Virus record (IMG/VR): IMGVR_UViG_3300025590_000015
Location: 1-42,166 of that record
Reading direction: 5' to 3' (one strand)
Source: a virus
DNA: 42,166 bases
Every line of letters starts with the position of its first letter. Position 1 is the stretch's first letter. A program made the translations under genes and the position numbers. Below, one piece after another: positions 28,438 to 32,202 of the stretch. The notes under the pieces are model-generated. The model searched no databases and was not told the origin of the DNA. It worked only from the letters and a program-made list of their open reading frames with translations.

Positions 28438-29580
28438 GTGTCCAAAACAAAAAAGCAAGGTGCAGGAACATCAATCGAGCATTATATTCAAGATGCAGCA
28501 GAGATTCGATTGACCGCACGTTTACAAGAAGAGGCAGAGAGATTAGGAGTTGCCTCTAAGAGCATTTCTTCAGAAATCAATAAGGAATTTGAGAAGGCAT
28601 GTGTAGACGGTAATATTGAGACTAAGTTCTCTAAGAGTAAGTATTCTAAAAATATAGAAGCAACATATCAGTCTATAGTTCAGGATCTTATTAAGAAATA
28701 TCCTGATCGTAAGTTTTATTTTCAGTGTGTAGATACAGAGTATCGCAATTTAGGAAAGAAAGGTGATATTCTTATTCATTTTGATGATGGTGAGAAAATC
28801 TCTGTTAGTGTTAAGAATTATCAGAATGGATATTCTTCTATTCAGGTATGTTCAGGAACATTTAATTCTACATTAAATAACATCTTATTTGATAATACTG
28901 ATTGTTCTCCTGGAATGTATATTTCACCTTATGGTGTAAAGTTTAAGGGAAGCAATAGAGAGTATCGTGATGGACTTGTAATGAGACAATATCCTGAATT
29001 ACTTCCTTTCTTTGGTAAGTTGGATAATATTAATGATAGTATTCGTGACTACTATATTAATAGTCCAGAGGCAGAGCATTATGAAAATGTAGCAGATCAG
29101 TGGAAGAAGGATTGTTCTTCTGTTGGTACTGAAGTTGCACCTCTTGTTGTTGAGGCACTTTCATTTCTACCTAATGAATCGGTTCTTGGTAGAATGCAGA
29201 AAGCAACTGGTTTAGTATCTGATGAGCATCTACTCTGTCTTGGTAAAGGTGAATATCTATTCTCTGTTACTAATGAGGATTATCATAAACTTTGCAATCG
29301 TGTAAAGGCAGCAACTCATGTTGAGTTGGAGAGTAGAGGACAATCAGTTTTCTATCATATCTGTGATGCTGATGGTGTAATCATTAGTATTAATCAACCA
29401 TGCACACTGCAAAAGAATGGAGCATGGTTTGCAACCAATGAACCAAAGTTTGAGGGTGTTCGTGAAAAGAATGATAAAGGTAAAAAGTTTATGCTTAAGT
29501 GGGGTCAAAGAAGACCACGTAAGAGTAAAGAACTTGCAACATCTACAAACATGTATCTTAAATTAAAAGACTATATGTAG
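28438..29580 (+). CDS. putative nuclease, PD-(D/E)XK-like
   Basis: 380 residues from GTG 28438 with AAGGAG at a good distance. The N-terminal half is helical; residues 108-126 read GKKGDILIHFDDGE followed by SVSVKNY, which fits the metal-binding strand-turn-strand of PD-(D/E)XK enzymes (Asp110, Lys126) with Ser124 where Glu or Gln usually stands. The remaining region has no known domain and ends basic (RRPRKSKEL). Next to a DNA methylase it could be a restriction-type or modification-dependent nuclease. The active-site reading is tentative. Confidence 0.45.
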   Translation: MSKTKKQGAGTSIEHYIQDAAEIRLTARLQEEAERLGVASKSISSEINKEFEKACVDGNIETKFSKSKYSKNIEATYQSIVQDLIKKYPDRKFYFQCVDTEYRNLGKKGDILIHFDDGEKISVSVKNYQNGYSSIQVCSGTFNSTLNNILFDNTDCSPGMYISPYGVKFKGSNREYRDGLVMRQYPELLPFFGKLDNINDSIRDYYINSPEAEHYENVADQWKKDCSSVGTEVAPLVVEALSFLPNESVLGRMQKATGLVSDEHLLCLGKGEYLFSVTNEDYHKLCNRVKAATHVELESRGQSVFYHICDADGVIISINQPCTLQKNGAWFATNEPKFEGVREKNDKGKKFMLKWGQRRPRKSKELATSTNMYLKLKDYM

Positions 29581-29600: not shown

Positions 29601-29632
29601 ATGAATCTTTCAAACTCACTTGAAAGATTCAT
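29601..29632 (+). terminator. perfect 13-bp inverted repeat, possible terminator
   Basis: ATGAATCTTTCAA at 29601-29613 pairs fully with TTGAAAGATTCAT at 29620-29632 over a 6-nt loop. There is no T-run, so it may be an attenuator, an RNase stop or a bidirectional weak terminator between the nuclease-like gene and the next. Confidence 0.6.
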
Positions 29633-29670
29633 ATATACATGGTATTCTTGAAACAACCTTTAAAAAAACA

Positions 29671-30747
29671 ATGAGTAAGCATTCCTTCGGCGTAATTAAC
29701 GCACAAAAATTTCCAAAAGCACCCGATTGTAAAGAGGGGTATGAATGGATTGATGGTGGAGATGTTAAGATGATCCCAATTGAAAATTGGGAGTCTGATT
29801 ATGAGTGTGATGCAAATACTAAAATAAATGATCACACAAATTATGAAAAAGTAGAGAGTAATTTACAAGCAACGGGATTTGATCATTCTTTTGAACCAGG
29901 ACATGCAGTTCCTATCCCTGGGACAAATAATGTTTCAGGAAAGAGTGCTAGAACTCGTCATAATATTCTTAAAAACAATGGATATAAGTATTATCCAACT
30001 AGGTTAATGACACCTGTTGAGGGATATGATGAAAGAATATCATCATTTTCTGAGGCGATGTCTGCTGATCTGCAACATAAACCACATAGAGAATTGAGTA
30101 TGAAGCAAATTGCACAACAAATGTGGGCACAAAAAGATAAAGGTATTTCCTGGTATCATGGGCAACCCGTTAATCCTGTGACCGGAGAAATTATCTATGG
30201 GGATGATGAATTTGATCATGCTTATGATACAGAGTTTGGAATCAATCAGGTATTTTGGCATAAAGTTCCAAGGGGAACTATCAGAAATTTAGTAAACAAA
30301 GGATTTTCCACTGCTGTGAAAATCAATGATAAAGATGAGAGAGTAATTAAGCAAGAAGTCAAAGATCATGAACTTGGAAATGGTAATGATGGATATAAAG
30401 TCAGTTTGATTTGTATGGATGACGCTGGCGCAAATGCTCCTGCTAAATTGTGGAATTTGTTTATGAATCCAAATAATAAGATTCGTCACATTATTTTCAC
30501 TAAAAAAGCACAAACGGCAGAAGAAGTGAAAACAATGAGAGAGACCTGGAGAAAAACTTTGATTAATTATGCAAAGATTGCTATTCAGTTTTCTCTGCAA
30601 AATAAATATATTTCTCCCGAAACAAGGGAAGAATTTATTAATGAGCGACTTCATATAATGTTTGCAAATTTTGAACTTTATGGGTATAATCATCTTGAGG
30701 ATGAGGAAAATTATGTGAAGATTGATATGTTTCGTGAGTATGTTTGA
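29671..30747 (+). CDS. unknown protein of the methylase cluster
   Basis: 358 residues from ATG 29671; a TTG at 29620 lies inside the hairpin and was rejected. Around residues 85-115 GHAVPIPGTNNVSGKSARTR with HNILKNNGYKYYP is vaguely like ParB/Srx-type folds, where a Gly-rich loop and basic residues act on nucleotides or DNA. A second conserved-looking block is GISWYHGQPVNPVTGEIIYG. The C-terminal half is helical with IIFTKKAQTAEEVKTMRE. It may be the DNA-recognition or regulatory partner of the methylase; this is only from position. Confidence 0.5.
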   Translation: MSKHSFGVINAQKFPKAPDCKEGYEWIDGGDVKMIPIENWESDYECDANTKINDHTNYEKVESNLQATGFDHSFEPGHAVPIPGTNNVSGKSARTRHNILKNNGYKYYPTRLMTPVEGYDERISSFSEAMSADLQHKPHRELSMKQIAQQMWAQKDKGISWYHGQPVNPVTGEIIYGDDEFDHAYDTEFGINQVFWHKVPRGTIRNLVNKGFSTAVKINDKDERVIKQEVKDHELGNGNDGYKVSLICMDDAGANAPAKLWNLFMNPNNKIRHIIFTKKAQTAEEVKTMRETWRKTLINYAKIAIQFSLQNKYISPETREEFINERLHIMFANFELYGYNHLEDEENYVKIDMFREYV

Positions 30748-30830: not shown

Positions 30831-31754
30831 ATGCAGTTTGATATAATAGTAACGAATCCACCATTTCAGGATTCTACCAATAAGAAGAAGACACAACATA
30901 AGCTATGGATTGACTTTACACAGAAAACATTCAGTGAGTGGTTAAAACCTGGAGGTATTCTCCTTCAGGTTTCTCCTAGTAGTTTCTTATCACCATCCAG
31001 TAAGATTCTGCAACTGTTTAAGTCTAAGGCAGTGAAGTTTCTGAACTTAGATACAAAAACTTATTTTCCTGAAGTGGGAAGCACGTTCGCCGACTATATG
31101 GTCTCCAACCGTCCCGGCATCGAAAAAACTAAAGTTGTTACTCAAGACGGTACATTTGACTGTAAAATAGATGATTCAGTGTTCTATTTGCCTATAGATT
31201 TATCAGAAAATGCCTTATCTGTTCATAATAAGGTAATGTTTGAGATAAGAGAGCACCTTGATGTAAGATATGATTATGTGACGTGTCATAACGTGAATTT
31301 GCTACGGGAGACTGGTATCATCAATAAGTGGGATAACTGTTGTGACATTAAAACTAAACAAGAGTTTATTGATAGTCATCCAATTCTACACACAAACAAA
31401 CAAACTTGGTATTCACGAATTCGACAGGATTGGGCATCAAAGAAGAAAGTAATGTGGTCACGGAGTGGATATACAAAACCAGTTTATGATGATGGTATTT
31501 TAGGTGGTACTGATATGGTATATTATGTGTTGGTGAATGATAAAGAATCGGGAGAGAATCTAACACATAACCTGAATAGTACGCTAATGAAGTATATTCT
31601 CAAGACTGCAAAATGGTCTGGGTTTGGTAATGAGAAAGTATTTTGTAGGTTGCCAAATTTACCAATTGATTGTAAAATGAGTGATGATGATGTGTTTGAT
31701 TTCTTCAACATCACAGAACAAGAGAGAGTGTATGTCAGACAAATTGTGGGATGA
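30831..31754 (+). CDS. adenine methyltransferase, catalytic half (motifs IV-VIII)
   Basis: 307 residues. It starts almost at once with motif IV, NPPF at residues 9-12 (MQFDIIVTNPPF), the catalytic tetrapeptide of N6-adenine methylases. KLWIDFTQKTFSEWL, then LKPGGILLQVSPSSFLSPSSK and TYFPEVGSTFADYMV follow in the usual order of the catalytic and target-recognition part. There is no AdoMet-binding motif I upstream. That part is on the next gene, which overlaps this stop by 23 bases. Most N6 enzymes have I before IV in a single chain, so this is a split and permuted enzyme, or half of one. Confidence 0.75.
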   Translation: MQFDIIVTNPPFQDSTNKKKTQHKLWIDFTQKTFSEWLKPGGILLQVSPSSFLSPSSKILQLFKSKAVKFLNLDTKTYFPEVGSTFADYMVSNRPGIEKTKVVTQDGTFDCKIDDSVFYLPIDLSENALSVHNKVMFEIREHLDVRYDYVTCHNVNLLRETGIINKWDNCCDIKTKQEFIDSHPILHTNKQTWYSRIRQDWASKKKVMWSRSGYTKPVYDDGILGGTDMVYYVLVNDKESGENLTHNLNSTLMKYILKTAKWSGFGNEKVFCRLPNLPIDCKMSDDDVFDFFNITEQERVYVRQIVG

Positions 31755-32202
31755 AGTAAAGAATAGGATGAATGATCACTCTTATATGGGTGAGATTAAT
31801 CGTGACGAATACAGAGTCAAAGTAACAGCCGAGGTTTTTACTCCGACTGATTTGGTGATAAGAATGATTCGTGAATGTGGTACGGATGAGTTTGTATCAG
31901 GCAAAACAGTTCTTGACCCTGCATGTGGAGATGGTCAGTTTCTAACAGCAGTCAAGTGGGTGAAAGTGTTGTTTCATAATATGAGTGAGGAAGATGCACT
32001 TAAAGATATCTATGGTGTGGATATTATGAGAGATAATGTTGACCTATGTAAGAAAAGATTGGGAGGAGGAAAAATATTAATGGGTAATACATTAGATCCT
32101 GCAAAGAGATTAGACGGTCAAAGTGATAGTGAACATGATATGATGAAGTTTCTATTTCTAGCACAGACAACGGTCTATAGTGCCGAAGCAATGGACACCT
32201 AA
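31732..32202 (+). CDS. adenine methyltransferase, AdoMet-binding half (motifs X-III)
   Basis: 156 residues from ATG 31732. EVFTPTDLVIRMI (residues 34-46) matches motif X of gamma-type N6 methylases. DPACGDGQFLTAV (62-74) is motif I, the AdoMet loop; IYGVDIMRDN (93-102) is motif II; ILMGNTLDP leads to where motif IV would normally begin, but the chain ends soon after. The catalytic NPPF half is on the gene just upstream. The two probably make one enzyme. As AdoMet half alone it could not methylate DNA. The chain end may be an old fusion point. Confidence 0.75.
   Translation: MSDKLWDEVKNRMNDHSYMGEINRDEYRVKVTAEVFTPTDLVIRMIRECGTDEFVSGKTVLDPACGDGQFLTAVKWVKVLFHNMSEEDALKDIYGVDIMRDNVDLCKKRLGGGKILMGNTLDPAKRLDGQSDSEHDMMKFLFLAQTTVYSAEAMDT

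Follow-up and report, generated by a model that had tools for sequence, protein, structure and literature searches.

The locus considered here lies in a window of 42,166 nucleotides, the whole analysed stretch of the viral record IMGVR_UViG_3300025590_000015, and comprises two overlapping genes and a linked upstream gene, all on the plus strand. The first of the overlapping genes, g1 (30831..31754, 307 aa), encodes a putative catalytic and target-recognition subunit which is TaqI/Eco57I-like from motif IV onward; its NPPF motif (30855..30866, residues 9-12) is invariant in a 13-sequence alignment (A2), in which long invariant blocks have been observed. The second gene, g2 (31732..32202, 156 aa, alignment A1), starts within g1 and encodes a putative AdoMet-binding subunit with motif X (EVFTPTDLV, 31831..31857, residues 34-42), the invariant motif I (DPACGDGQF, 31915..31941, residues 62-70), motif II (YGVD, 32011..32022, residues 94-97), and motif III, after which the protein ends ahead of any motif IV. 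Coordinates and motif positions have been rechecked, and they agree with the initial annotation, according to which g1 begins at motif IV without a motif I and g2, with motifs X, I, and II, ends short of motif IV; neither chain has been found to hold the complete motif set. The sequence likewise agrees with the 23-bp overlap described there (31732..31754, +), a figure that assumes the g2 start at ATG 31732, the frame from GTG 31681 being an open frame only. The purine-rich AAGAGAGAG stands just before the overlap, and translation of g2 may be coupled to that of g1 through this overlap.

Regarding the enzyme class, g1 residues 1-73 correspond to positions 73-159 of the Pfam Eco57I profile, followed further along by a weak match to the TaqI_C specificity domain, and g2 residues 31-107 correspond to positions 24-94 of the N6_Mtase profile. 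Bacterial g1 homologues match PDLC03273, the canonical Type II methylase of PADLOC (432 aa), at positions 130-408; the match of g2 to this profile, at 28-90, is weak, with E 0.004 for the window and 0.03 for L152. The g2 profile has also matched M.BseCI (E 2e-4), and the g1 profile search against PDB sequences has given no usable match. The AdoMet motifs (X, I, II) and the catalytic NPP[FY] of the gamma class are thus all present across g2 and g1, in the order IV-TRD / X-I-II-III in two chains instead of the X-I-IV-TRD of the gamma class in one. The resulting order IV-TRD-X-I, which is of the beta-class type, holds for the gene pair read together and for the fusions described below; no beta-class family has been found, and the DNA-methylase matches in Pfam are limited to Eco57I, TaqI_C, and N6_Mtase. 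These assignments support g1 and g2 as predicted parts of a single gamma-type N6-adenine methylase with reversed gene order.

A single four-base step within the overlap has further been used to join the two window genes, which were modelled as one chain with 41 homologous rows. The joined chain folds as one gamma-class adenine methylase (pLDDT 84.4, pTM 0.84), for which CamA, M.TaqI, BrxX, and M.BseCI have been returned as PDB fold matches (prob 1.00), with TM-scores of ∼0.4, as expected when a permuted fold is aligned sequentially. The two halves, whose pairing in models had been raised as a decisive point, pair within this tethered single chain (pTM 0.84), which is not a docked dimer. In the window, g1 has neither the beta1-beta3 strands nor motif I and therefore needs g2 structurally. 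The description as a permuted and cut gamma-type enzyme is accordingly borne out by the division of motifs between the chains, by the folding of the joined model, and by natural fusions that keep the permuted order.

IMG/VR scans and a profile census have yielded 43 viral contigs in which g1 is complete and overlaps the g2 behind it (among them four near-copies of the window and L041, in which g1 lies in two frames; cases cut by a contig end are additional), and the pair is present in seven bacterial genomes. This recurrence of the pair with its overlap is far beyond chance. Identity among the homologues drops to about 50%, the overlap measures 20-23 bp in most of them (11 bp in L034), and a purine-rich, ribosome-binding-like AAGAGAGAG or GAGGAG precedes g2. 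In the aligned sets, NPPF, FTPT, DPACGDGQFL, and YG-D are invariant, and dN/dS is about 0.05-0.29 for both genes in the pairs with usable values. The distances of g1 and g2 are correlated (Mantel r 0.87, 0/2000 permutations).

The gene upstream of the pair, R (28438..29580, +, 380 aa), was overlooked as its partner in the initial annotation and is predicted to encode a restriction endonuclease of a PD-(D/E)XK variant. Every one of the 43 split and six fused viral loci has it beside the methylase, upstream or downstream, as do six of the seven bacterial genomes, in four of which it lies on the opposite strand; its position and strand relative to the methylase thus vary. The bacteria bearing R are Curtobacterium ammoniigenes, Cellulomonas, Geodermatophilus, two Micrococcales MAGs, and one Limnochordia MAG. 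A screen of the class and of the family of Curtobacterium, with some 400 genomes in each case, has yielded almost no further R, and the R-methylase system is therefore rare in bacteria. R distances track those of g1/g2 only partly (Mantel r 0.57). E22, K108, KGD110, SVK126-x-Y128, Q136, and SGT139-141 are invariant or nearly so in R, and conservation points to a putative nuclease active site at D110 ... S124-V125-K126 (28765..28815, +), with D110 and K126 present in all 28 aligned homologues and S124 in at least 90%. The AlphaFold model of R (pLDDT 90.7, pTM 0.82) has HinP1I as its top PDB fold match (prob 0.98, 0.95), then MspI (0.23) and, weakly, EcoO109I; the likeness to HinP1I is remote (Foldseek E 5.7e-3, TM 0.30/0.42). 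As in R, where S rather than D/E precedes the active-site K, the middle residue of the D...xxK-type site is not acidic in HinP1I and MspI; R is longer than these enzymes, whose sites are GCGC and CCGG. No family match to R has been found in Pfam, NCBIfam, or PADLOC and no usable match in a profile search against PDB sequences, and a fold search against viral models has returned mostly uncharacterized or unnamed proteins. Two features of a Type II R-M system are hence present, namely a linked candidate endonuclease gene and a nuclease fold (the remote HinP1I/MspI match, with invariant D and K). Since the R gene belongs with the methylase, the locus reads as a putative R-M system. A plasmid of Curtobacterium (D40) and one MAG have g1 and g2 in records that contain no R homologue, as an apparent orphan split methylase.

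Between R and g1 lies a gene for a 375-aa protein (29620..30747, +) with no family match. A homologue stands beside the system in about eight of the 37 loci compared, and because it is absent from most of them, the protein is accessory or an unrelated insertion and not a constant part of the system.

Within the phage collection, homologues of R with 59-66% identity have been found in two cyanophages in culture, namely Synechococcus phage S-SZBM1 (NC_070839.1, gp024) and Prochlorococcus phage P-RSM6 (NC_020855.1, CPXG_00166), and neither whole genome contains g1 or g2 anywhere. If R is a restriction enzyme, the DNA of these phages, having no methylase, must therefore lack its site. A k-mer scan followed by a gapped-palindrome scan, in which many words were tried, has led to TTCAA/TTGAA: TTSAA (S = C or G) has a count of zero in both full genomes (177,834 bp and 192,497 bp, respectively). 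The trimer-based expectation is 738 for P-RSM6 and, over its first 150 kb, 674 for S-SZBM1, with roughly 740 or more sites expected per complete genome; the remaining pentamers of comparable composition all reach at least 165 counts in both phages. With ∼700 sites expected in each of two genomes, the zero is not due to chance despite the many words searched. In control phages, observed and expected counts are close (Bellamy 471/482, syn9 136/133, S-PM2 131/154, P-SSM2 126/139, P-SSM4 96/106), giving 960/1013 or 0.95 of expectation when pooled; P-SSM4 serves as the same-host control (Prochlorococcus NATL2A). Phages with both R and methylase are about half-depleted, in split (421/944, 0.45) as in fused forms (142/307, 0.46), and loci with g2 but another system show no depletion (299/291, 1.03). 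TTSAA contains an adenine, which an NPPF methylase requires. Based on the linkage and the partial depletion, the methylase may share the TTSAA specificity predicted for R. CCGG was also considered as the site of R, given the MspI fold match and its absence from both phages that have R without methylase, and has been rejected, as R-free cyanophages lack CCGG too and it contains no adenine. The CCGG count is zero in S-SZBM1, P-RSM6, and the read stretches of syn9, S-PM2, P-SSM2, and P-SSM4 (L182-L185, L188-L191), and 53 against 52 expected in the window.

A survey of relatives, grouped as fusions and INTERMEDIATES, has answered the earlier call for full-length homologues: natural fused forms exist and have kept the permuted order. 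Six marine contigs (L139-L144) carry the g1-like and g2-like parts in one chain of 472-500 aa, and permuted single chains occur also in the Aeromonas phages ZPAH1, phiAS5, and PX29. Permuted two-gene forms are found in Shigella phage PSD9, Klebsiella phage PKO111, and Aeromonas phage Ah1; the PSD9 pair is flanked by the genes for primase and dCTP pyrophosphatase, which is the position of dam in T4. In PSD9, the CDS at 1485-2984 of L003 (PSD9_103) has a LEM-3-like GIY-YIG nuclease domain ahead of a degenerate AdoMet half and an NPPF half. In Synechococcus phage ACG-2014f (L001, L172), the g1-like gp186 and the g2-like gp051 lie ∼100 kb apart in the same genome.

Genes of the g2 type also follow other methylases, which have an intact N-terminal half in L080 and L095, a decayed motif I in L082 (DPAMAGG), L096 (DPVMGGG), L078 (DPSMGSG), and L100 (DPAFANG), and an erased one in L075 and L077. 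The g2-like half of L075, L076, L099, and Bellamy (L002) is accompanied by a helicase, a small Mrr-like nuclease (with an Mrr_cat_2 match in L075), and a methylase with motif I erased, which looks like another phage R-M-like system sharing the g2-type subunit. Helicase-methylase genes precede g2 in L080 (T5orf172 and ResIII) and in L092, L095, and L100, where they encode fused chains with lengths of 1113-1288 aa, and these loci are candidate large phage restriction systems. In Bacteroides (L159, L160), a 227-aa AdoMet-half gene stands before a methylase that has a weak half of its own, which is another duplicated-half arrangement, in the opposite gene order.

Free and fused AdoMet halves form one group in the tree, apart from canonical N-terminal halves, a placement that is weak because the deep branches are long. 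One change suffices for the canonical halves (support 86/94), and the fused forms need at least two state changes. An origin of g2 by local duplication of an N-terminal half is not supported, since the free halves group away from the halves of neighbouring full methylases, again on long, weakly placed branches. The forms may have arisen in the order full, decayed, split, and fused, which we only infer, as the deep branches are long. A wider reading, to which we give slightly more credence than to its negation, holds that the locus would be a TTSAA R-M system with an obligate heterodimer of a permuted gamma methylase, that its relatives would keep natural steps of a circular permutation, and that the free AdoMet half would be exchangeable across several phage R-M-like systems. 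The steps would be a full methylase with a spare AdoMet half, the decay of its own half, separate catalytic and AdoMet halves as in the window, and a re-fused permuted chain.

The best explanation, which we consider very probable, is a Type II R-M system for TTSAA in a marine T4-like phage, whose methylase would be naturally split and circularly permuted. Motifs, conservation, linkage, single-chain co-folding, natural fusions, fold similarity, and site avoidance support it; against it stand the remoteness of the HinP1I match and the S before the active-site K of R, the partial agreement of R distances with those of g1/g2, the tethered form of the joined model, R without methylase in two phages, and methylase without R in the Curtobacterium plasmid and one MAG. 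Such separate occurrence, together with other phages that have both halves and no R homologue, is what one would expect if g1/g2 were a functional orphan split methylase directed against host restriction and R a nuclease that serves some other purpose, e.g., the breakdown of host DNA, at a different target; orphan methylases are also frequent in phages (PMC7824862). The constant linkage of R in the 43 split, six fused, and six of seven bacterial loci, in several orientations, and the loss of TTSAA only where R stands without a methylase, with mere halving where both are present, make this unlikely. About equally unlikely is a wrong site assignment that would leave the R-M reading standing, the avoidance in S-SZBM1 and P-RSM6 being due to host restriction or another phage enzyme. 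Avoidance can indeed have other causes, as the CCGG missing from these phages and from R-free cyanophages illustrates, but TTSAA occurs at expectation in R-free cyanophages including the same-host one (96/106) and is half-depleted where R and methylase coexist.

Slightly less probable still is that g2 would be a general AdoMet-binding or regulatory subunit for various phage methylases, some with their own motif I, instead of the missing half of g1. The g2-like genes behind methylases with intact (L080, L095) or degenerate halves (L082, L096, L078, L100), which the tree groups with g2, speak for it; the window g1 without beta1-beta3 strands or motif I, and the fusions that join exactly the g1 and g2 halves, speak against it. 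Each half is incomplete and gene fragments abound in phage genomes, so that a broken methylase in decay, or a normal gene that was misassembled, comes to mind as well. Dozens of independent contigs share the same architecture, however, as do bacterial chromosomes, under purifying selection and with invariant catalytic and AdoMet motifs, by which relics, misassembly, and the sequencing error that had been named as a possible cause of the split are excluded; we regard this last reading as very improbable.

Under the preferred R-M reading, R would cut the unmodified palindrome TTSAA as a PD-(D/E)XK-type endonuclease. The AdoMet-binding half, with motifs X, I, II, and III, would come from the g2 protein, and g1 would bind the site and contribute the DNA-recognition domain as well as the catalytic half with its NPPF (motif IV). 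Both would assemble into one Rossmann-fold catalytic domain, permuted in gene order and cut at the old C-terminus/N-terminus junction, and the heterodimer would methylate the A in TTSAA and so shield phage DNA from R. The likely role in infection would be the killing of rival phage DNA or host DNA breakdown.

Compared with known systems, the gamma-class M.TaqI, M.BseCI, CamA, and Eco57I-like enzymes share motifs X, I, II, and IV and a TaqI-like specificity domain with g1/g2, which differ in having two genes, the reverse order, and a catalytic half opening with motif IV at residue 9. Beta-class amino-methylases such as CcrM have the same order of catalytic region, TRD, and AdoMet region, whereas g1/g2 are two chains, and since the sequence and fold matches are gamma, this order would have been reached independently of the beta class. 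M.AquI and M.EcoHK31I are naturally split C5-cytosine methylases, and none of the split or permuted methylases of this kind is known to be both, or to be an adenine enzyme. M.BssHII is a permuted C5-cytosine methylase (PMC5944983); all three are two-polypeptide or permuted like g1/g2, but act on cytosine C5. Circularly permuted M.EcoKI-like adenine methylases of jumbo phages were noted in 2021 (Iyer et al., PMC7824862), and the available part of that source gives them the order IV...X-I of g1/g2, but in a single chain, with no mention of a split version or a linked nuclease. The Aeromonas fusions are probably of this kind. A chromosomal form of the system occurs in Curtobacterium, which belongs to the same family as Agrococcus. 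AgsI of Agrococcus has the site TTSAA (PMC5051824, PMC3925983), the same as predicted for R. The initial suggestion that a permuted split methylase may be new holds in that no report of the split form has been found; the methylase is not a lone oddity and belongs to a widespread family that includes fused, split, and partly degenerate members, and its fused permuted form had already been mentioned for jumbo phages (PMC7824862). Literature searches have likewise turned up neither an adenine methylase that is both split and permuted nor the R family, although predicted entries may exist in REBASE.

Circular permutation of methylases has so far been inferred from end products, and possible intermediates can here be compared side by side. 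The three-gene R-M set carries a specific prediction, m6A in TTSAA, and R would represent an endonuclease family outside all protein-family libraries used. S-SZBM1 and P-RSM6 would possess a cutter without a protector, every site having been purged from genomes of 178 and 192 kb. Finally, a natural adenine methylase in two pieces could be of use as a split tool with which DNA is marked conditionally.
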